Assembly: GCA_019155205.2 (NCBI GenBank) | Contig: JAHNZQ020000092.1 | Location: 348,532 to 378,871 of the forward strand | DNA length: 30,340 nt | DNA from: Gracilaria vermiculophylla | Taxonomy: Eukaryota; Rhodophyta; Florideophyceae; Gracilariales; Gracilariaceae | Direction: 5' to 3' | In this document: piece after piece, positions 1,732 through 28,431 of the stretch | How positions within the stretch are numbered: the stretch's first letter is position 1 | Layout of the letters: every line of letters starts with the position of its first letter | Notes under the pieces: generated by a model | The model's input: only the letters and a program-made list of their open reading frames with translations | The model's database searches: none | What the model was told of the DNA's origin: nothing | Translations under genes and position numbers: made by a program

Positions 1732-3487
1732 TCAAGTATCACTATTGAGACCAAACGATCTGTGGTTCGGGAGCAGTAGCGTTCCCGTTGCTGCTACTCT
1801 GTTAACGAGTCGATGAGATGTCGAGTTATTCTTTGTGAGTGCGTCTGCAGTATTCGCTTTCCCTTGAATCCAGCGTATGGAATCAAGCTCCTTCGATTCA
1901 AAGGAATCCCGGATGCGCTGCACGGTCTGCCGAAGCCTGTATTCCTTTCCTTTGTGAAGTGTCGTGATAGTATCAAATAGCCCTCTTGAGTCTACATTGA
2001 GAATATGTGAGAACGCGTCTTCTGGGGATATGGATTTTAGCGCGGCCTTGATGCGATACCCCCTATCATTTGCTTCTGTACACGTGATAATCTCAGCCCC
2101 GTATGACAAATGTGACACTCGTTTCTGCTTCATGCTAGCCCAGTCCACCAGGTGATAAGTTGTAGCGTCTCAAGTTGACGTTTTGTAGCGAATACCAGTG
2201 ACGAAACCAATCTGTCCGTACTTTTGACAAGCTGAAATATTAAAGGAGGCGTCGGAGAATGATACCACTTCAGCAAGGCTGATTGATTGTGATGGGGGGT
2301 GAAATGTGATCACTGGCCGTAGGTTCCGTAGTTCAGACAGCGTACGATATGCATCGATCAGTTGCTCGACTGTCAGTTGTGGGATTCTTTGCCGCATCAA
2401 TGATCCGAAGTATGCCGCTTGCGGTAGTGCTCTTCATCCGAGCCAAATGAGAGCTCCTGCCATAGCTCGATATGAACCAATCTCGTGCGGCTGTGCTTTA
2501 TCTTTTCGCATTGTTCTTCTAGTCTTGCTGATATTGATGGGCTTTATATCGTTCGCATAGTCTTCCATTGAAAGCTGTATTGTAAAGCCCTTCGCTTGCG
2601 AGATGGTGCAACCATTGAACTTAATTTCGTCATTGATAAAGGCCTTGCTGATCCTGAACCGAGTGTCAATCTCGTCTGCAAAAACACGCATGTCTTGTAC
2701 TGAAGCAGAGAAGAGGAGCTCATCAGTAAGTTTTGCGAGTAGCATCGTAATATCGCCATCCTCATTTCGTCGTACATAAAGTTGACTGACTCCAAAAGCC
2801 CGTGAAAATTTTGCCTCAAAGAGTAGCCAGTGCTCGACAACGGTAGCCCATTGCCTTCGAACTTTGCTGATTTCGTACGGGATCTTCACGAGCTTCCAGA
2901 GTGTGCCGCGTTTGCCACTCCACTCGGCTGGTGGCCTTACGTAGAGATCGCGTGTGATGGGTCCACTCTGCAGATATGCACCTTTGATGTGAATGAATCC
3001 AAGGCAAAATCTTAGGATCGAAGAAAAGGACAGGAGAATTCGAATAATGTCGAACTGCGCGTTTGCCGAATCGTTGCAAATGTTTCCTTTTTCAGTATCT
3101 CTATTGCCATGAGGACAAAGTCTGGCTTCCATTCGCTTTCGTTCCTTTTCTTCACTCTTTACCTTGTACACCACATGTGAACCGACCACATTAAGGTCTC
3201 TAGGCACCATGGAATCATGTACTTAGACATGACTCATGTACTTCGACATATGCTCCTTTCCAAGCCATCTCTAATTCTTCGTCGACAGCCTTATCCAAGA
3301 TCCACTGTGGCGCGCAGTCCATCTTTTTCCGAGTAACCTGTGCATTGCCGATCGCATTGTAAATATAGTTCAACACGTGCCGCTCATCTGAGCTGAGCTC
3401 TACTTCTTCGCTGCTAGGAGGGCCCTCTGCTGCGGGTTGTCCAATATCCCGGAATGTGTCTCCAACGACCGCGGTACTGAGTAAGGA
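1732..3487 (-). pseudogene. copia reverse transcriptase-RNase H, broken
   Basis: Copia-type RT and RNase H, last part of pol. The linker and the start of RT (3210-3487) need a frame change, near a local repeat of CATGTACTT. From 3210 the frame runs with two in-frame TGA stops, at 2434-2436 and 2170-2172, to the end at 1732. RT homology includes 'VGSHVVYKVK', 'KGAYLQS', 'DLYVRPP' and 'WKLVK'. RNase H includes 'SFSDASFN', 'SYGAE' and 'IRWIQGKANTADALTK'. The first RT catalytic Asp of the usual 'D-I-K-G-A-Y-L' block reads His (IHIKGAYL), and the usual DD pair reads 'LTDELL'. The protein would be inactive even if the stops were read through. Confidence 0.9.
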
Positions 3488-8562: not shown

Positions 8563-9498
8563 TTAATTACCCCAGTCAATGAACTCTTCCAAAGTAAAGA
8601 GTTGACAGTCAAAGTATGCCGCTACTTGATTAGAGTATGGCATGCTTTTTGCGTTCGACAAGAGCATGCTGCCTACGTGCAGTAAGCCAACTGGAGACTG
8701 TAGAACACGCATTTTGCGTTTGTAGTCAACAGTGTTCCAGTACTGTTTAATAAACATGCACTCGACGGTCATTCGTGCGCAAGACATGGCTCTGTTAACG
8801 GCAGCTTCGTTTTGGCTCAGTTCAGAGACTTTGAGTGGAATCCTGAGGTACTCACGCTCGTTGTAACCGTTATCTCCGTAGATGGAGGATTGCTTCTCGG
8901 CGAAGAATAAGAACTCCTCTAGCTACGCATCGATTCCGGACCTCACTTAATACGTCCAGTCGTCCCTACGCCCCTCAAATGGGCCAAATACGTGCATGAG
9001 CATGCCATCCGGCGTTGTTACAGCCTGAAATTTCAAGTTCTGTTTTCTTTTGTTTCCATTGTACACTATTGCTTGTAGTCCGTATTTGGATGGCCTCGCA
9101 ATTCCAATAACTGTGTTATCTATGAATCCGATACAGTTTTGTGAGGCACTACACTTGTTTCGCTCGGCAGCAGCATACCGTTCAGGGTTGTTTTCAATAA
9201 AAAGGTCACCCAAAAACCCAGCTAAGCGGTGCCCTCTGTTGGTGATGAGGGGCTCCATGCCTTCCCAGAATATCTCACACAGCTGTAAAGCGTTTTTTCG
9301 GAACAGTAGCTTGACATCTGTCCAACGAAGAGGTGTGGCCAACCGTTTGAGAATCACGCATGTTGTAAGTAGAGCAGAAATGAAATAACGGTTGCGACTG
9401 GTCACGTACTCAAGAACCTGTCCTTGCCCAAAGCACACAGTTCGAGGTATGTCGGACTTCAGAAATTGGAAGTGACTTAAGCAGGTGGCATCGTTCAT
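8563..9498 (-). pseudogene. PIF/Harbinger DDE transposase, two in-frame stops
   Basis: HARBI1-like transposase (DDE_4 nuclease type), start at ATG 9498. The N-terminal part ('HFQFLKSDIPRT') matches the family helix-turn-helix region. The catalytic core has D127 in 'GFIDNTV', then 'ARPSKYGLQAIVYNG', 'KFQAVTTPDG', and the second Asp at 179/180 in 'GRRDDW' (family GRRHD). The third acidic residue is in 'ARMTVE' near 8763. Stops TAA at 8947-8949 and TAG at 8923-8925 break the frame, but the same frame continues to the end at 8563 with 'GNQ'-type C-terminal wording (YSNQVAAYFDC, EEFIDW). The catalytic triad is still present, so the loss is probably recent. Confidence 0.88.
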
Positions 9499-18840: not shown

Positions 18841-21111
18841 ATGGCGGAGAACGCCGAGGTGCCGCTGCCCAGCCCCTCGGGCCGTAACATTCTTGTAACG
18901 TCAGCCCTTCCATACGTCAATAACTATCCTCACTTGGGTAACATCATCGGAGCCGTGTTATCCGCCGATGTGTATTCTCGCTATGCACGTCAGCGCTCTT
19001 GCAATGTGATTTACGTGTGCGGAACGGATGAATATGGCACCGCCACTGAAACAAAAGCGCAGCAGGAAGGGTTAACCCCTCGTCAAATATGTGACAAATA
19101 CCACGCCCTTCATAAAGAAGTCTATGCGTGGTTCGACATCAATTTTGACGTGTTCGGCAGAACAAGCACGGAAGTACATACGAAGATTGTGCAGTCTGTT
19201 TTTGAAAGGGTGCATGCAAACGGGTATGTTACACAGGATACTATCACACAGCTGTTCTGCGAAAAGGTTTGCCAGCGATTCTTGGCAGATCGCTATGTTA
19301 ATGGCGACTGTCCGCACTGCGGTTTTGACGACGCCAGAGGTGATCAATGTGACAACTGTGGCCGCATGCTTAATCCGGCGGAATTGCTGCGACCGCGATG
19401 CTCCACTTGTGGGAATGAGCCCATTTCCAGATCCACAACACATTTGTTCTTGGACCTGCCTAAACTACAAACCCGATTAGAAGACTGGGTGGCGGAAGCT
19501 TCCGAGAAAGGTAAGTGGACGAATAATGCATTGGCAATGACGCGGACGTGGCTGAACGATCAACTTAAGGCCCGGTGCATCACAAGGGATTTGAAATGGG
19601 GTGTTCCCGTTCCTCTCGAGGGCTTCACAGACAAGGTATTTTATGTTTGGTTCGACGCCCCCCTGGGATACCCCTCCATCACGGCTGAATTATGTGGCGA
19701 AGACTGGAAGAAATGGTGGTTACCCGATGAAGGCGTAGACGTTACGCTGATGCAATTCATGGGAAAGGACAATGTGCCATTCCACACGATCGTGTTCCCA
19801 GGGGCCTTGCTTGCTACAAGCGACCCCTGGACCATGTTGCACCACCTTTCAACGACAGATTATCTCAACTACGAGGACGGAAAGTTCAGCAAGAGTCGTG
19901 GCATTGGTGTGTTTGGGAACGATGCAATAGACACAGGCATTCCTTCAGAAGTGTGGAGATATTATCTGTTGCTTAATCGTCCGGAAGGATCGGATGCAGT
20001 TTTCACATGGGACGACCTTGCCGTGAAGAACAACGACGAACTTATCAAAACGCTAGGGAACTTTATGAATCGTGTGATCACGTTCCTGTACAAGTCGTTC
20101 GGCGGTGTGGTGCCGGAAGTTATTCCCGACAACAAAGAAGACGAGGAATTCACAGCTATGGTGAACACACAATTGGAGGAATACAAACGCCTGATGGACG
20201 CAGTGAGCCTGAAGGGCGGGTTGAAAAAAGCAATGGCCATTGCGAGCATTGGAAACTTGTACCTGCAGCGCAAAGAACCGTGGAGCTTGTTGAAACAAGG
20301 TGACACTCGCACGGCGGGCAGCGCTCTTGCGTACGCTGCCAACTTGGCAATGCTGGTGACGGTGATCTTGGAGCCGTTCTTGGGCACAAAATTCTCGGTG
20401 AAAGTGTTCTCACAGCTGGGGCTGCAGCATCGGGCTGGGGAGAACAATCTGATTCCGGAGAGGTTCGAACCGCTGCAATGGATCAAAGCGGGGGTGAAAA
20501 CAGGGAAACCGCAGATCCTGTTCACGACGCTGACGAAGGATCAGGTGGCGGAGTGGCGAAGAAGGTTCAGCGGCGACGCGTCGAGCGCAGAGCGGAACAA
20601 GCAGGAAAGCGAAAAGAGGCTGGGGCTGGACTTGCGCGTGGGGCAAATCGTGGACATCAAAGAACACGAGGAATCGGAGCGGCTGTTCGTGGGCAGGGTG
20701 GACGTGGGGGAGGGCGAGGCGCGCACGGTGGTGGCGGGCCTCCGGGACGCGTACACGAGGGACGAGCTGCACGGGCGCAAGGTGATCATGGTGTGCAATC
20801 TGGCGCCGGCCACTTTGGGGGGGGTGGAGTCGCAGGGGATGATCCTAGTGGGCGAGAAGAAGAAGGTGACGAAGGTATTGAGCGCGGATGAGGGCGCGCG
20901 CGTCGGGGACAGAGTGGTGGCGCAGGGCGTGGGAGTGGGCGACATGGGGCAGCCCTTGGACCGCAAGGGCTTCCAGGCGGCGAGCAAGATGCTACGCGTT
21001 GCCATGGGCGGGCAGGTCGTGTTCGACAAGAAGCACGCGCTCGTGGTGCAAGCGGACGCCTCGCTGCTGGTGCGCTGCGCTGGCGTGCCGGACGGCGCCA
21101 AAGTTAAGTGA
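18841..21111 (+). CDS. methionyl-tRNA synthetase with C-terminal tRNA-binding domain
   Basis: Charges tRNA-Met with methionine for cytosolic translation. 756 aa, no intron. The class I core has 'HLGN' at 31-34 (HIGH motif) and 'KFSKS' at 348-352 (KMSKS). The connective domain has Cys pairs 157/160, 170/173 and 187/190 that fit zinc knuckles. An alpha-helical anticodon-binding region follows (about 390-560), with 'NLYLQRKEPW' at 472-481. Residues 593-756 are an OB-fold EMAPII/Trbp111-type domain ('LDLRVGQIV', 'VCNLAP', 'ESQGMIL'), the fused tRNA-binding module found in plant and some other eukaryotic MetRS. There is no organelle presequence before the core, hence a cytosolic role. The start at 18841 is the first ATG with coding likeness. 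GC content rises strongly from about 20550 into the next gene's 5' region. Confidence 0.97.
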   Translation: MAENAEVPLPSPSGRNILVTSALPYVNNYPHLGNIIGAVLSADVYSRYARQRSCNVIYVCGTDEYGTATETKAQQEGLTPRQICDKYHALHKEVYAWFDINFDVFGRTSTEVHTKIVQSVFERVHANGYVTQDTITQLFCEKVCQRFLADRYVNGDCPHCGFDDARGDQCDNCGRMLNPAELLRPRCSTCGNEPISRSTTHLFLDLPKLQTRLEDWVAEASEKGKWTNNALAMTRTWLNDQLKARCITRDLKWGVPVPLEGFTDKVFYVWFDAPLGYPSITAELCGEDWKKWWLPDEGVDVTLMQFMGKDNVPFHTIVFPGALLATSDPWTMLHHLSTTDYLNYEDGKFSKSRGIGVFGNDAIDTGIPSEVWRYYLLLNRPEGSDAVFTWDDLAVKNNDELIKTLGNFMNRVITFLYKSFGGVVPEVIPDNKEDEEFTAMVNTQLEEYKRLMDAVSLKGGLKKAMAIASIGNLYLQRKEPWSLLKQGDTRTAGSALAYAANLAMLVTVILEPFLGTKFSVKVFSQLGLQHRAGENNLIPERFEPLQWIKAGVKTGKPQILFTTLTKDQVAEWRRRFSGDASSAERNKQESEKRLGLDLRVGQIVDIKEHEESERLFVGRVDVGEGEARTVVAGLRDAYTRDELHGRKVIMVCNLAPATLGGVESQGMILVGEKKKVTKVLSADEGARVGDRVVAQGVGVGDMGQPLDRKGFQAASKMLRVAMGGQVVFDKKHALVVQADASLLVRCAGVPDGAKVK

Positions 21112-21500
21112 GGGGACGGCGTAGCGGTGCAGCGCAGCGCCCGGTGCCACGCCGCGCCGCGCCGTGCACCACGCAGGGGAAGATACAGCGCACATTCATT
21201 CTTTGCCCACGGCGCCCAATGGCGCGCGCACACGTCGCCGCCATCCGCCGCCGCCGTCTCGCACCCGTGCGCGGCGCAGCCAGTGTGGCCCCCGCGGCAC
21301 TCCCGCGCCACCGCAGCGCCTGCGGCCCGCGTGGTCGCGTGCACGCACAGCGCAGCACTCCCAGCGCGCGTGCCCCCATCACTCGCCCCCGCAGCCACTT
21401 GCCCTCATCGCAGCAGCCGCGCCGCCGCCACTCGCTGCTTCCTAACGAACCTATCCCTCCCCCTCGACCCCGTCCCGAGCACCCCCGCCCCCATCTCCCC
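21112..21500 (+). other. GC-rich spacer / possible 5' extension of the GTPase gene
   Basis: 389 bp between MetRS and the most likely start of the GTPase. It is rich in G and C and open in the GTPase frame all the way. An in-frame ATG at 21219 would add 94 residues rich in Arg, Ala, Pro and Ser and almost free of acidic residues, which resembles a transit peptide or simply translated 5' leader. No clear promoter element is seen. Confidence 0.5.
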
Positions 21501-23255
21501 ATGGCTTCCACGCACGACTGGGTCACCTCCGTCAAGGACGCGTCCGAGCAAAGACGGCGGCGTGGCGCAAGCCCCCCAGCCCCCACGCACGGCGATGCCA
21601 ACATCTCCCACCCCGACGTGCAGCGCGCCGCCGCCACCCGACCCGCAGCCGACCTGCAACCCGAGGACGACGAGGGCTTCATCGAGTACAAGTGGAGCTT
21701 AGTCTCTCCCTCGCGCGAACGCTTTGCCCAGCTCGTCACGCAGCTCAACTTCCGCTTGTTCGAGGGCAATGGCGAAGCCATATACGAAATAGGAGTAGAG
21801 GACAACGGCCGAAAGAAGGGCCTAACGCAAGACAGATTAGACGCCTCGTTAGGCACCCTCAAGGAGATGGCGCACGAGCTCGGAGCCGAGACACAGGTGC
21901 TTCGCGAGGCTGACGGCAAAGAGGGCAGAGTCGCTCAGGTGCTCGTCAGAAAGGTGCCAAAGGCATTGGAGGACTACGTTGACATTCGTATCGCCGTTGC
22001 TGGAAACGTCGATTCTGGCAAGAGCACCCTGGTGGGCGTCCTCACCGGAACCGGCGCGCTCGACAACGGAAGGGGACTTGCCCGCTCACAGATATTTACC
22101 CACAAACACGAAATGGAATCCGGTCGCACTTCCACAGTGTCGCAAGCCATCATTGGCTTCGATGCAACCGGTTCAATTGTAAACTACACCGATGTTCGTC
22201 ATCTCACCTGGTCCGATGTCGTCGAAAAGTCGTCCAAAGTCTTGACTTTTTTCGACCTTGCGGGCCATGAACGTTACCTCAAGACCACAGTATTCGGTCT
22301 CACCGCCCATGCTCCGGATTACTGCATGCTGGTCGTAGGAGCAAACATGGGCGTGTTGCGCATGACCAAGGAGCACCTGGCCATCGCCCTCGCCCTCAGA
22401 GTTCCCGTGTACATAGTTGTGACCAAGACTGACTTGGCCCCGAACCAGATTTACACTCACACGCTCACAACATTACAACGTATACTCAAGAGTCCAAGCG
22501 CTGGAAGAAAGCTTCCCGTCCTTGTTAAGAGCATGGACGAGGTAACGCTCGCCGCTCAAAACATCGTCAATGATCGCGTTGTGCCAATTTTTTCAATTTC
22601 CAATGTTACCGGCGTGGGTCTCGACTTGTTACGTGCTTTCTTGAATCTTGTGCCATCGCGACGGAATTGGCGCCAGCACATGGATGAGCCAGCTGAATTT
22701 GCCATTGATGAAACATTCGTTGTGCCGGGCGTTGGCACCGTGGTTGCCGGAACTACAACAGCTGGCGCTGTCAGTTTAGGACAGGTTCTCAACCTCGGAC
22801 CTGATGGTCGCGGCAAATTCATCAAAGCGCAGGTCAAGTCTGTCCATTACAAGCGAACGCCTGTCAAACGCGTCGTTGCCGGTCAAGCTGGCTCATTAGC
22901 GCTTAAGAAAGTCAAGCGATCCGCTGTCCGCAAAGGGATGGTGTTGCTTGATGCCAATGTCCGACCGGGAGCTATCCGTGAATTCACAGCCGAAGTGCTA
23001 GTGCTCTATCACGGAACAACGATCCGCGAGGGTTACGAACCAGTATTACACTGCGAAACGATCAGACAAGCGGCCAAAGTACTATCGATAGACGCTCCGA
23101 TCATCAGAACTGGCGACCGTGCAACAATCAAGTTTCGATTCATGTACCACCCGGAGTACGTCAAAGTGGGAGCGCGATTCATTTTCCGTGAGGGGAGGAC
23201 CAAAGGCCTTGGAAAGATCACTTCAGTGGACATCACGGAGCAAACACGAAATTAA
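21501..23255 (+). CDS. GTPBP1/2-type translational GTPase
   Basis: 584 aa from ATG 21501. GTP-binding protein of the EF-1-alpha/EF-Tu superfamily, GTPBP1/GTPBP2 branch, which in animals acts in mRNA surveillance and ribosome-linked quality control. G1 'GNVDSGKS' 168-175, G3 'DLAGHERY' 252-259 and G4 'TKTD' 308-311 are all present, followed by EF-Tu-like beta-barrel domains 2 and 3 (about 390-580; 'VVPGVGTVVAGT', 'RFMYHPEYV', 'FREGRTKGLGKI'). The N-terminal 50 residues are low complexity. The region 58-160 ('EGFIEYKWSL', 'IYEIGVEDNG') is typical of the branch and absent from EF-Tu. The start is chosen because homology begins soon after it. A start at 21219 would give 678 aa. It converges on the POP gene. 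Confidence 0.93.
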   Translation: MASTHDWVTSVKDASEQRRRRGASPPAPTHGDANISHPDVQRAAATRPAADLQPEDDEGFIEYKWSLVSPSRERFAQLVTQLNFRLFEGNGEAIYEIGVEDNGRKKGLTQDRLDASLGTLKEMAHELGAETQVLREADGKEGRVAQVLVRKVPKALEDYVDIRIAVAGNVDSGKSTLVGVLTGTGALDNGRGLARSQIFTHKHEMESGRTSTVSQAIIGFDATGSIVNYTDVRHLTWSDVVEKSSKVLTFFDLAGHERYLKTTVFGLTAHAPDYCMLVVGANMGVLRMTKEHLAIALALRVPVYIVVTKTDLAPNQIYTHTLTTLQRILKSPSAGRKLPVLVKSMDEVTLAAQNIVNDRVVPIFSISNVTGVGLDLLRAFLNLVPSRRNWRQHMDEPAEFAIDETFVVPGVGTVVAGTTTAGAVSLGQVLNLGPDGRGKFIKAQVKSVHYKRTPVKRVVAGQAGSLALKKVKRSAVRKGMVLLDANVRPGAIREFTAEVLVLYHGTTIREGYEPVLHCETIRQAAKVLSIDAPIIRTGDRATIKFRFMYHPEYVKVGARFIFREGRTKGLGKITSVDITEQTRN

Positions 23256-23593: not shown

Positions 23594-25948
23594 TCATTTC
23601 GCCTCGTACCAAGATTGCCCATGCTTTGCGTCCACAGTTAAATCAACCCGAAGGTTGATATCCACTGGATTCTTCATCTTCTCGATTACGATTGGGAGAG
23701 CAATTTCGGCTGATTCTTCCGGCCCTTCAAGGATTATCTCATCATGAACCTGCAGAACTATCCGCCAACCTAATGTTCTCAGAATTCGATCTTGGTGCAA
23801 TCTGAGCATTGCACCCATTACCAAATCTGCTGCAGACCCCTGCAGGGGGGCATTGATGGCAGCTCGTTGTGCTCGAAATCTGTCATATGGTTTCGCAGAA
23901 ATAATGTCCGGTAAATGTCTTCTTCTCCCAAGGATTGTTTCGACAAAATGATTTTCCTGAAGAAACCTCTTGCACTCCCGCTGCCACGTTCGCACCTCTT
24001 GGCGCTCCTTGTACCACAGATTCAGCGTCTCCGCGGCTTCCTCTTCACTAGTATTCCAGTCTTTTGCAAGACCAACGACGGTTTTCCCGTATGCAATTGA
24101 AAAATTTAATGTCTTTGCTTTCCTTCTTTCAGTCGGAAACATATCTTTCAGAAGTGGCACGTTCCTCGAGCCCTTTGCGCCCTCTTCTCGTTCAAGAATG
24201 CATTTTCCTTGCGAAACTGCGTCCTTCACATTCTCAAACATGGTTAACGCGGTTCTTGAGTGGAAATCTCCTCCGGCCCGGAATGCTTCGATCATGGATT
24301 GGCAGTTTGTGATATGAGCTAACAAGCGCAGCTCGAGCTGTCCGTAATCTGCTATGATGAGCGAATTCCCACTTTCTGGGACGAACGCTTTCCGAATTTT
24401 GTACCGATCCTTTTCCAAAGCAGGTTGGTTTTGCAAGTTCGGTCGGCGGGAGGAAAGTCGTCCTGTCTCGGTGTTCAGATTCAACGAGGCGTGTATTCTG
24501 CCGTCTTTTCCAGGCCACTGTTGCAGAGGAAGTATGAAGCTTGACATGAGGCTCGAAACTGAAGTGGCATTGATAAGGTCTTCAATGGCCATGCCCATTT
24601 CGATATCGTCGTCACCATCGTTGTTTGAGATTCGCTTTGACAGTTTATTCATGGCCTTAGCCGAAACGCTTGGCCATCCTTTGGCCGTATATTCCTCTGG
24701 CTTCTTTCCCAAACCCTCTAGCACGACATCAACCTTCACTTTCTTTTTTGAATCGGATCCGGTATACATCTTGTACATCTCTTGGTCTTGCTCAGAATCG
24801 CTATTCTGAAGCTGTTGAAGATATCTTTCTCGCAACTTGCCGGTCAACGCCAGGTTGAAAGACTTCCGACGAGACATGGTCTCCTTCTTGTCAAGCTTAT
24901 TGGTACAAGGGGCAAAGAACAACTGCTGTTTCTGAAGATCAGAATGTACATTCATGTACTTGGCATCGGGGGAGTGTTTCTCAGCCCAGCGTCGAAACTT
25001 GTCTTCGTACGCCAATTGCTCCTCCTGCGCGTGAATCGCGGCTTCCTTCAACCAGCTGGTGTCAACCTTGAATCCCGTACTTTCCATGTCAGTCAGAAGC
25101 TCGCCGAAAGGAACAAGGATGCTATTGTACAAGTCGAACAGACTTTTGTATCGCTCAACAACTTCTGGAACACTGTTGCTGCCGCATATGGTCATGTTTT
25201 GCAGTTCGTTCTTGAGACGATGAGAGAGGCGATGAGTCAGCTCTGCATCCATGGAAGCGTAATCAATCCACTCATCTCTGAGTTGGATATCGTTGTGGAT
25301 ACTGAGAGTGCTGAGGGCAGCTTTTTTACCATCAAGAAGACCAAAACGTTCAGACATACTTGTCTTTCGCATATCGGATTGCAAGAAATGTTTGCAAAGC
25401 TCTTGCAAGGAGTATTTTTGAAGTGAGGAGTCAACCAGCCTTGCCATGTGCATGGTGTCGCCGGCAAAGCCGCGAGCGGTGATTCCGTGATTACCGAGGA
25501 CATGTCTGTCGAAGGAATAATTATGCCAAACTTTGGGTCTTGTCTCATTCTCAAAGTAAGGACGCAGTGCATGAAGAACGCCCGGCTTCATGCAGTCAAC
25601 AAACAGCCTTGGCCCAGTTCCGAAGTCGACATGGTGGCCTGCGTACGCTGTGGCGCAGAGAACACGTCCGTTTCCAACAGGACTCTGTTTCGAGGGGTCA
25701 ACGCCGGTAGTTTCCGTATCCCACGCCACCAGAGTATCATTGGGAAGCGTATATAGTTTTGAGACGACGCTGGCTGCTGTGCGCAGGTCGTGTACGACGG
25801 TCACATTCTCAGGCGCGGACGGCGATTGTGGGACAACGAACGGAGTGTGTCGTGAGTGCAACACAGGCAAAGCAGCGGACTGGGCGTGGGTGAAGCGCCG
25901 GGTCGGCAATCGTGCTCCGAGGCGAAGCGGAAGAGCGAGCGCAGGCAT
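23594..25948 (-). CDS. plant/protist organellar DNA polymerase (POP), active form
   Basis: Family A replicative DNA polymerase of plastids and/or mitochondria, 784 aa from ATG 25948 (an in-frame GTG lies 5 codons upstream). The Arg-rich, acid-free N-terminus ('PLRLGARLPTRRF') looks like a transit peptide. The 3'-5' exonuclease is complete: Exo I D77/E79 ('AWDTETTG'), Exo II N143/D147 ('HNYSFD'), Exo III Y230/D234 ('DYASMD'). Polymerase motif A has D534 ('ADYGQLELRLLAH'). Motif B has R608, K612, F616, Y620 ('RRKAKTLNFSIAYGK'). Motif C is H735-D736-E737 ('QVHDEI'). The lysine-rich insert before the palm, around 'GLGKKPEEYTAKGWPSVS', is typical of POP. Red algal and plant POPs are known to act in organelles. 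No intron is seen. Confidence 0.96.
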   Translation of the reverse strand: MPALALPLRLGARLPTRRFTHAQSAALPVLHSRHTPFVVPQSPSAPENVTVVHDLRTAASVVSKLYTLPNDTLVAWDTETTGVDPSKQSPVGNGRVLCATAYAGHHVDFGTGPRLFVDCMKPGVLHALRPYFENETRPKVWHNYSFDRHVLGNHGITARGFAGDTMHMARLVDSSLQKYSLQELCKHFLQSDMRKTSMSERFGLLDGKKAALSTLSIHNDIQLRDEWIDYASMDAELTHRLSHRLKNELQNMTICGSNSVPEVVERYKSLFDLYNSILVPFGELLTDMESTGFKVDTSWLKEAAIHAQEEQLAYEDKFRRWAEKHSPDAKYMNVHSDLQKQQLFFAPCTNKLDKKETMSRRKSFNLALTGKLRERYLQQLQNSDSEQDQEMYKMYTGSDSKKKVKVDVVLEGLGKKPEEYTAKGWPSVSAKAMNKLSKRISNNDGDDDIEMGMAIEDLINATSVSSLMSSFILPLQQWPGKDGRIHASLNLNTETGRLSSRRPNLQNQPALEKDRYKIRKAFVPESGNSLIIADYGQLELRLLAHITNCQSMIEAFRAGGDFHSRTALTMFENVKDAVSQGKCILEREEGAKGSRNVPLLKDMFPTERRKAKTLNFSIAYGKTVVGLAKDWNTSEEEAAETLNLWYKERQEVRTWQRECKRFLQENHFVETILGRRRHLPDIISAKPYDRFRAQRAAINAPLQGSAADLVMGAMLRLHQDRILRTLGWRIVLQVHDEIILEGPEESAEIALPIVIEKMKNPVDINLRVDLTVDAKHGQSWYEAK

Positions 25949-26265
25949 GACGAGCCGCCACACGCCCGGCGCCGGCGGCGAAGGTCCGCGCGATGTGCCC
26001 GCGCGCAGACCACTTGGCCGGGAGCCCTATCGTGCTGGCCACGTGGCACTCAACCAAACAGTAGGCCGGCGCCGCTATTGATACATCCAATCAGCGCAAG
26101 CCACAGCTCACGGTCGCCAGAGTCCGAGGGATCTCAGATTCTCACTATTGCTCGAGGACTGCAATCTTGATGGACACATACTAAACGACGAAGGGAGATT
26201 GCATCTTACATGGAGCGCATAAATTTGACGTCTATCGACGCCCGCCGCCGGATTATGAATAATGT
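25949..26265 (-). other. spacer between the two POP-type genes
   Basis: 317 bp, GC-rich near the active POP start. It must hold the 3' end of the upstream paralogue and the promoter or leader of POP. ATGs on the plus strand here only open antisense frames. No RNA gene or clear motif is seen. Confidence 0.6.
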
Positions 26266-28431
26266 TTATGACAGTCTGCGCAGTGCTCGGAAATTATCCC
26301 CGCGCAGGATCCTGAGCTGATGCAAAGCACTCTCTAGTATCGCGCCGCCGCCGCTGCTAGATACCAGCGTGTCTAACACAGCGGGAGCAGCCTCTTCAGA
26401 CGACCAACGCGGCCCTTGGAGCACAATTCTGTTCGCATCAGCGAATATGATGCGCCACGCCAGGGCATTGATTCTTTCGCTATGAACGATTTTCAGTACG
26501 CTCTGCATCATGAAGTCTCCAGCAGATCCTTCAATCGTGAAAGTCATGCCTTCGTTTACGGCCACCGCGGCGCGCCTGCCTTTCCGCAATTTCAACGCCC
26601 GCTGCCTACCCTGCAGTGTTTCTGCAACCTTTCGATTTCTTATTTTTCCGGCTTCCCTATCGTGCCATAGCTTAACTGCAGGATGCACTTGGAACCAGCC
26701 ATTCATGAGCTGTGAGGCCCGCACTGCGTCACACTTCATCACGCTCTTCACAATTTCCACTCGCGCTCCCTTGCTCATGCAAACATCAAGCATCCTTGCC
26801 ATGTGAAACTTTTCTGGAAATGCTCTTCGCACTGTAACACCTTCCCCCTCCAAAACACAGCTGCCATCGTACAGAGCATGGGCAATTTCTTTCGAAAACT
26901 CTTTTGCCAGGTACGCATGCGCCCCATCCTTTAGCCGCAATCTTTCCTTCAGACGCTCACAGTCGGAAAGGTCTGCCAGAGCACAAAGGTTCAGGTTTTC
27001 GAATTGCAAAACCACAAGTTCGTGATCCTTCTTGGCCCGTAGCACCTCGAAAACATTCGCGCAGACGTTCGTCCAAAGTTGACCTTTCTCAAAATCTGTT
27101 TTTGTCATCATCCTCACTTGTCCTTCAGAATCCACTACTTGCTTTACGCCTTTTTCAAAGTTTTGTGCTGCTAGTTTCAAAGTTCGCGCATTCTGCAGTC
27201 CGTTAATCGCAGAATATGCAGTTTGTAATTTAGGTTCCTGTGAGGAACTGAGAGCTTTCACCACGCTTTGCAAAGCAGACATATTAACAGAAGGCACGCC
27301 ATTGGAAGTATATTTTTCAGGCGCCAGTCCAGCTCCTCTCACCAATATTTTTCTTTTTTTTCCGGGACTTCTTTTCCCTCGAGTTATTCCGACCGCATTA
27401 CCTTCCATGTCTCGCTCACGAGCAGAAAACGTTTTTTCTGTCGGAGTTCTCTCAGATTTGTTCTGTATATTCTGATACGGTGCAAACAGAATGTGTCGGA
27501 GCATTGAAGTGGTGATATCTACCTGGGATACTTCATCACAATATATTTTAGCCCAACTTTCGAAGATGGATTGATGAGATCTGCGATCATTCTCAAAACG
27601 TTGTAACACATTACAAAGCATTTCGTCGTCTAGAAAAAGGCATTGATTTCCGACAGTGCACAGGCTCTTCTCGATCTGAGCATAAAACCTTTCGTAAGCT
27701 TCAAAACAGTTTTTTGCTTCACCTGAAAACAAGCCCTTTTTCAGCATCTTAGTTTTCATTCTTCCATACATATGGAATATTGCATATGCATCACCATATG
27801 CAGAAGAAATCCATCCGTCACTCAAAAGCCTCATGTCATAAGTGGGCAGGTCCCAAGGCCGATCCTGAAAACCAATCATGGATTCCCTCTTGTCCCGCGC
27901 ATGCTTGCTCACAACTTTTTTGACGTAGGAATCGAAGCTCTTCTCTTTCAGTCCTGATATGCGGAGCATTGCTTGAACATCGTGCAAACACCCACGCGCT
28001 TCAATACCCCTGCTAAATAGATGACTCGTAAACTTTTCCATATCAAAACAAACTGCCTTTGCCATTCTATCCTGAAAATACTCCCGGAATAGTCCCCATA
28101 CTGCAGCCTCATGTCCGGAAGATGGACATACAAATGCCCCTGCTCCATCCTGAAAAGCGTTGCCAGCGTACGCGCACATAGTCATCATAGCTGGCGAAGT
28201 CCTCGGAGGCAAAGCTTGAGAGCTCCATGCTACGGTTGTGCCATCCGGCAACTTTAGCAAAGCTTCTATTGCTTGCGATGCTGTTCTTACGTCATTTACG
28301 ATTGAAACTGGCAGGTGAGTCCTTTCAAGTTCGTCTTGATCGTGATAGGTTGTTTGAGCGCTCGAAGTGAATGCCTTTCGAAGCACAGAAATTCGACGAT
28401 GAGTGCCAACCCACGACCTGATGCCATTCAT
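26266..28431 (-). CDS. POP-type DNA polymerase paralogue, catalytically dead
   Basis: 721-aa intact frame, homologous to the neighbouring POP along its whole length: 'DVRTAS' near 47-52, 'FREYFQDR', 'GLAPEKYTSNGVPSVN', 'LEGEGV' and 'WRIIFADANRIVLQGP' align in order. The catalytic positions are lost. Exo I D and E read S70 and Q72 ('AWSSQAL'). Exo II N and D read D130 and F134. Exo III Y reads S211, and only its Asp (D215) is kept. Motif A D reads Q476 and its E reads N481. Motif B R, K, F, Y read F542, R546, V550, K554. Motif C HDE reads A666-N667-R668. The N-terminus ('MNGIRSWVGTHRRISVLRK') looks like a mitochondrial presequence. No stop or frameshift, so probably a functional pseudoenzyme, for example an accessory subunit. 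A young pseudogene is less likely given how far it has diverged. Confidence 0.88.
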   Translation of the reverse strand: MNGIRSWVGTHRRISVLRKAFTSSAQTTYHDQDELERTHLPVSIVNDVRTASQAIEALLKLPDGTTVAWSSQALPPRTSPAMMTMCAYAGNAFQDGAGAFVCPSSGHEAAVWGLFREYFQDRMAKAVCFDMEKFTSHLFSRGIEARGCLHDVQAMLRISGLKEKSFDSYVKKVVSKHARDKRESMIGFQDRPWDLPTYDMRLLSDGWISSAYGDAYAIFHMYGRMKTKMLKKGLFSGEAKNCFEAYERFYAQIEKSLCTVGNQCLFLDDEMLCNVLQRFENDRRSHQSIFESWAKIYCDEVSQVDITTSMLRHILFAPYQNIQNKSERTPTEKTFSARERDMEGNAVGITRGKRSPGKKRKILVRGAGLAPEKYTSNGVPSVNMSALQSVVKALSSSQEPKLQTAYSAINGLQNARTLKLAAQNFEKGVKQVVDSEGQVRMMTKTDFEKGQLWTNVCANVFEVLRAKKDHELVVLQFENLNLCALADLSDCERLKERLRLKDGAHAYLAKEFSKEIAHALYDGSCVLEGEGVTVRRAFPEKFHMARMLDVCMSKGARVEIVKSVMKCDAVRASQLMNGWFQVHPAVKLWHDREAGKIRNRKVAETLQGRQRALKLRKGRRAAVAVNEGMTFTIEGSAGDFMMQSVLKIVHSERINALAWRIIFADANRIVLQGPRWSSEEAAPAVLDTLVSSSGGGAILESALHQLRILRGDNFRALRRLS

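Follow-up and report, generated by a model that had tools for sequence, protein, structure and literature searches.

Results

A POP gene pair on the minus strand

The window analysed here is a stretch of 30,340 nucleotides from the red alga Gracilaria vermiculophylla (contig JAHNZQ020000092.1, positions 348,532 to 378,871 of the forward strand). It carries an intact gene of the organellar DNA polymerase POP and, upstream of it in the same direction, a diverged full-length paralogue, called pseudo-POP in this work. Judged from sequence, it is highly probable that pseudo-POP is a conserved, predicted-inactive member of DNA polymerase family A. The features of the gene pair are as follows.

26266..28431, minus strand: pseudo-POP gene; intronless 721-codon frame, ATG at 28431, stop at 26266-26268; the sole such copy found in its own genome
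28342..28431, minus strand: presequence-like N-terminus, residues 1-30; no acidic residue before position 31, net charge +5, least conserved part
27739..28314, minus strand: 3'-5' exonuclease-like domain, predicted inactivated, residues 40-231 (limits approximate); S70/Q72, D130 and S210 changed, D214 kept
26362..27141, minus strand: polymerase-like palm and fingers, predicted inactivated, residues 431-690 (limits approximate); Q476, F542, V550, K554, T630, E634 and A666-N667-R668, LQNQP deleted
26269..26361, minus strand: C-terminal tail, residues 691-721, unlike the POP tail; 71% with Agarophyton chilense and 77% with Gracilaria domingensis
25949..26265, no strand: gap within the head-to-tail pair, 317 nt from the coordinates
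23594..25948, minus strand: intact POP, the live paralogue; 784 aa counted from ATG, exonuclease and polymerase motifs complete

The initial annotation had described an uninterrupted frame of 721 codons that aligns with the adjoining POP, and this was borne out. The frame contains no internal stop, and in a single BLASTP comparison it matched the neighbouring POP over residues 42-689 with 149 bits and 166/722 identities (23%; E 2e-41). Identity between the two proteins is about 19-25%, varying with the alignment. Against Pfam DNA_pol_A the window pseudo-POP scored 32.9 bits (cut-off 34.3), rising to 34.9 bits with neighbouring matches in a six-frame search of the genome, and the Pfam exonuclease model gave no match when this protein was scanned alone; the neighbouring POP scored 285.4 and 83.5 with the two models. 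At E 0.01 DNA_pol_A matched all four pseudo-POPs known here and the exonuclease model two of them, and no other Pfam family, including family B and Y polymerases, was matched. Pseudo-POP is a homologue of family A polymerases that have an N-terminal 3'-5' exonuclease. When its own genome (44.8 Mb, 27 contigs) was searched with the pseudo-POP protein, two places were found, pseudo-POP and POP, and a search with the DNA_pol_A model gave three matches, all inside these two frames; in both searches the best candidates were scored and introns ignored.

Orthologues of pseudo-POP

Pseudo-POP is known here from four sequences: the window copy (P0001) and full-length orthologues in Agarophyton chilense (P0003, 721 aa), Gracilaria domingensis (P0004, 722 aa) and a EukProt Trinity transcript (P0005, 717 aa). 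They are 58-66% identical to one another, and the two orthologues that are assigned to a species belong to Gracilariaceae. P0004 is publicly named 'Ribonuclease H', which looks like a misannotation. Two protein searches, one started from the window sequence and the other from the four-row alignment, each recovered these three orthologues only, the second among 7998 candidates scored at E 0.01. Prokaryote genomes and viral contigs scanned with the orthologue alignment gave 57 and 32 pattern matches, of which none passed tblastn. In A. chilense and G. domingensis the contig that carries pseudo-POP is as long as the one that carries POP, and the linkage of the two genes has therefore probably been retained. 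The search for orthologues with the same substitutions, as proposed in the initial annotation, has accordingly yielded three that carry most of them. This also answers the concern that the window copy alone is decaying, as the losses are mostly common to the three full-length orthologues.

Loss of catalytic residues

Motif positions were tabulated on an alignment of the four pseudo-POPs with 49 POPs; polymerase residues are given in what we take to be E. coli DNA polymerase I (Pol I) numbering. As a control, 121 POP-type proteins were used, namely the window POP and the best 120 of 1736 matches. In this set 17 critical positions are invariant, save for P0052, a fragment without the exonuclease part, and F762L in P0088. 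The Klenow fragment, which is distant and active, also retains these motifs when aligned to the window POP; divergence alone therefore does not explain their loss from pseudo-POP.

In the exonuclease part, the Asp and Glu of Exo I are replaced by Ser and Gln in all four pseudo-POPs (S70 and Q72 in the window). The Asp of Exo II is gone from all of them, the aligned residue being F/F/F/W or T/A/T/T depending on the alignment and never Asp; the window copy has D130 at the first position of this motif and no Asp at the second. The Tyr of Exo III has become Ser or Pro in each (in the window it aligns to S210, and not to S211 as first reported). Among the exonuclease residues Asp, Glu, Asp, Tyr and Asp, the sole one kept is the final carboxylate, present in every copy (D214 in the window).

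The polymerase part is similarly affected. All four pseudo-POPs have Asn or Ser for Glu710, Phe for Arg754, Lys for Tyr766, Thr for Asn845 and Glu for Gln849 (T630 and E634 in the window), and they lack both His881 and Glu883 of motif C. Phe762 is replaced by V, G, K and T across the four. Arg841 is alignment-dependent (N/N/N/S, or Arg in all four) and no claim is made on it. Ten POP-invariant columns are deleted, seven of them in one segment (L, Q, N, Q, P, K and D); the deletion that removes this LQNQP segment from every pseudo-POP spans 9-12 residues, varying with the alignment. The substitutions listed in the initial annotation for Exo I (S70/Q72), motif A (Q476), motif B (F, R, V, K at Arg754, Lys758, Phe762 and Tyr766) and motif C (A-N-R) are all present in the window copy, and the LQNQP deletion and the changes at Asn845 and Gln849 add to that list.

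Three positions differ between the copies. In the order window, A. chilense, G. domingensis and transcript, the Asp of motif A is Q (Q476), N, D, D, the Asp of motif C is N (N667), N, D, D, and Lys758 is R, R, K, K. The statement that both active sites are erased holds for the window species and A. chilense; it is not true in full of all four, because G. domingensis and the transcript keep both metal-binding aspartates of the polymerase site. Retention of these aspartates and of Lys758 in P0004 and P0005, and their joint change in P0001 and P0003, is what might be expected if a residual or altered metal-dependent activity persisted in the former two species and disappeared in the line leading to the other two, the window species and A. 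chilense. Such an activity is improbable, since Arg754, Tyr766, Gln849, Asn845, Glu710, His881 and Glu883 are lost from all four proteins and the LQNQP segment is deleted. Both polymerase and proofreading activities of pseudo-POP are predicted to be lost. On the simplest reading, the common ancestor of the four had already lost the exonuclease, LQNQP and most of the fingers residues, and the aspartates disappeared afterwards on the branch of the window and A. chilense copies.

Evidence for maintenance

Loss of catalytic residues, together with a rate of change about twice that of POP between the same species (identity 64/60% for pseudo-POP vs 82/81% for POP), could be taken as a sign of a decaying pseudogene, or the frame could be an artefact of gene prediction. 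A neutral simulation was performed in which the window gene was mutated to the observed divergence, with 60 runs per orthologue, a single transition/transversion weight and no indels. Neutral copies gained on average 13.5, 14.2 and 15.9 stops for the three orthologues, with a minimum of 6, and the real proteins have none. The replacements are conservative, with a mean BLOSUM62 score of +0.12 to +0.19 vs -0.54 to -0.58 in the simulation. Conservation depends on the domain: it is lowest in the presequence and peaks in the polymerase part and the tail, and the windowed variance of invariant columns, 0.0255, exceeds that of all 2000 shuffles (at most 0.0173). The longest run of invariant columns (9) is unremarkable, being reached by 272 of the 2000 shuffles. 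It was also observed that the former Exo I site (residues 69-83; window 28183-28227, minus strand) is among the most conserved parts despite its lost catalytic residues, with 70% of the block 61-90 invariant. The presence of full-length frames in four species, including one represented by a transcript assembly, and the absence of stops where about 14-16 are expected make decay or artefact very improbable, and the decaying pseudogene was rejected on the frames and the simulation. The same two results support retention by selection. Pseudo-POP is, in sequence terms, a pseudoenzyme: an enzyme homologue without its catalytic residues, predicted inactive and retained by selection.

N-terminus, fold and C-terminal tail

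All four pseudo-POPs begin with 30 positions free of acidic residues and carry there a net charge of +4 to +6, and pseudo-POP may be targeted to an organelle. The fold predicted from an alignment that included 49 POP rows is that of Pol I, with a predicted local distance difference test score (pLDDT) of 84 and low confidence at residues 1-38. This model leans on the POP rows; therefore it indicates that the sequence is compatible with the Pol I fold and is not an independent proof of it. The conserved C-terminal tail, which is unlike that of POPs, is possibly a new interaction surface.

Divergence from POP and age of the duplication

Columns were called POP-invariant when at least 95% of the 49 POP rows agree, and 163 such columns were compared. 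Every pseudo-POP keeps 46 of these and every one departs from POP at 99; the other 18 are mixed. The retained columns are mostly structural, 37/88 vs 9/75 for polar ones. At 55 of the 99 changed columns one new residue is common to the four, vs 194/505 POP-variable columns (Fisher p 0.0018). This no more than hints at new constraint on the former active sites; core positions are slow-evolving anyway.

Trees were built from 53 rows and from 30 of those rows, and the group labels of metagenome rows were assigned from the tree. The four pseudo-POPs form one group with a support of 100 in the Shimodaira-Hasegawa-like approximate likelihood ratio test (SH-aLRT). The stem between this clade and the POPs measures 10.0 changes per column (53 rows) or 7.0 (30 rows), and on so long a stem the trees do not place the clade among POPs. 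With 30 rows, constraining the clade to five Gracilariales-type POPs gave a tree 9.2 log units better than that of the free search (p 0.72 in the approximately unbiased test), and constraining it to three Gracilaria-type POPs one 8.5 log units better (p 0.70). A Gracilariales origin of the duplication is allowed by these results, not shown. Where POPs of Gracilariales differ from other florideophyte-like ones, the consensus of the pseudo-POPs divides 1 to 0, with 9 columns matching neither; a looser cut gives 5 to 6 (40 neither). Where Gracilaria-type and Gracilariopsis-type POPs differ, the count is 0 to 6 (28 neither); few such shared-state columns can be polarised and they do not decide the origin. 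The window and A. chilense copies, both without the aspartates, pair at 98 in the 30-row tree, and the 53-row tree gives 58 for another arrangement.

The very long stem, the new residues fixed at former POP-invariant positions, the loss of most invariant polar residues with deletion of the LQNQP segment, and a C-terminal tail that differs from that of POP are all consistent with exaptation to a function that has nothing to do with POP or with the replication of organelle DNA, in which the Pol I scaffold alone was kept. A comparable case is poxvirus F12, which acts in virion morphogenesis. On the other hand, the basic, acid-free N-terminus of all four proteins and the apparent linkage to POP suggest, though they do not show, a role in the organelle. 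We consider exaptation of this kind, the main rival explanation, rather unlikely.

Other features of the window and species

The rest of the window contains the following features.

2434-3210, minus strand: frame matching RVT_2 (reverse transcriptase), 67.3 bits
3719-6270, minus strand: long frames beside the RVT_2 frame, with no Pfam match at E 0.001
8947-9498, minus strand: partial DDE_Tnp_4 transposase-domain match, 32.1 bits, profile positions 1-55 of 158
18841-21111, plus strand: one frame encoding methionyl-tRNA synthetase, tRNA-binding domain at the C-terminus
21477-23255, plus strand: GTPase with EF-Tu domains 1-3; the longer frame that opens with GTG at 21108 is probably coding in part only

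Among the taxa compared in one paper, Agarophyton vermiculophyllum is exceptional in that RAD52 is reported absent from it (PMC10250338).

Discussion

The present study describes a tandem duplicate of the organellar replicase POP that has lost most of its proofreading and nucleotide-selection residues and has yet stayed full-length. Its presequence-like N-terminus could import it into the organelle, where it may fold like the Klenow fragment and work without catalysis. Its likeliest job would be to partner or regulate the active POP, or to bind DNA at sites of organellar replication. A partner or regulator is suggested because of the logic of the Pol epsilon dead module, ImuB and the dead paralogues of trypanosomes, and by this analogy we would give a non-catalytic organellar role of this kind an even chance. 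It is conceivable, though somewhat doubtful, that pseudo-POP is a dedicated non-catalytic subunit of POP in the Gracilaria group, setting its processivity, targeting or activity.

Several observations weigh against these proposals. In Cyanidioschyzon merolae, POP is reported to be highly processive as one polypeptide (PMC3914683), and the need for a processivity subunit is therefore not obvious. As many as 66 of the 75 polar POP-invariant positions are not retained in all four pseudo-POPs, and these losses, with the LQNQP deletion, argue against POP-like binding of primer-template. Amphipathicity of the N-terminal helix is above the background mean in one pseudo-POP and not in the other three. 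Structure prediction from the four orthologues alone gave a pLDDT of 33.9 and did not yield the fold. Finally, for Gracilariopsis chorda, also of Gracilariaceae, a POP (P0008) is in the database and no pseudo-POP surfaced, the search there covering the protein set and not the genome.

A conserved, predicted-dead POP beside a live one is a clean and testable case of a replicase turned into a non-catalytic factor, and it raises the question whether POP always acts alone. Should pseudo-POP be such a subunit, POP would be heteromeric and family A would include a dead polymerase that serves in a replisome; the open-licence papers searched yielded neither. The pattern of losses, with the exonuclease, most of the fingers and LQNQP gone from all four and the aspartates from two, also hints at the sequence in which residues decayed once catalysis had been abandoned.

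With POP itself, pseudo-POP shares homology over most of its length, the exonuclease-plus-polymerase layout, a basic N-terminus and the tandem position; unlike it, POP has the catalytic and nucleotide-selection residues, the LQNQP segment and another C-terminal tail. In C. merolae POP is reported from both plastid and mitochondrion (PMC3914683), and second copies in an algal POP survey are described as recent duplicates or copies for different organelles (PMC6523293). No dead POP, and no dead polymerase domain in family A, was found in the open-licence papers searched; the initial annotation likewise knew of no described dead POP. In animals, PolG2 is a synthetase-like, catalytically dead accessory subunit of the mitochondrial polymerase. 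It offers an analogy only, in that a protein without catalytic activity assists the family A polymerase of an organelle, whereas pseudo-POP is a paralogue of the polymerase itself. In the survey of PMC12926913, inactivation in family A is described for the exonuclease domain. PolA2/APEX (PMC12926913) resemble pseudo-POP in being family A proteins with an inactivated 3'-5' exonuclease domain; they differ in being bacterial and suggested low-fidelity polymerases whose polymerase domain is taken as live.

Family B includes dead polymerases (PMC2669801, PMC4304020), and dead modules matter both in nuclear replication (Pol epsilon) and in bacterial mutagenesis (ImuB). The C-terminal module of Pol epsilon (PMC2669801) has, like pseudo-POP, an inactivated exonuclease and polymerase, is nevertheless conserved and is paired with an active polymerase; it belongs to family B and is fused in one polypeptide, whereas pseudo-POP is a family A protein from a separate gene. 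ImuB is a catalytically inactive Y-family protein that partners DnaE2 (PMC12926913). It is a separate dead polymerase homologue serving as a partner, a function that we infer for pseudo-POP, and it differs in its family and in acting in bacterial error-prone synthesis. In trypanosomes, dead paralogues activate their live partners (PMC5201418, PMC3663545), and pseudo-POP could be playing a similar part beside POP.
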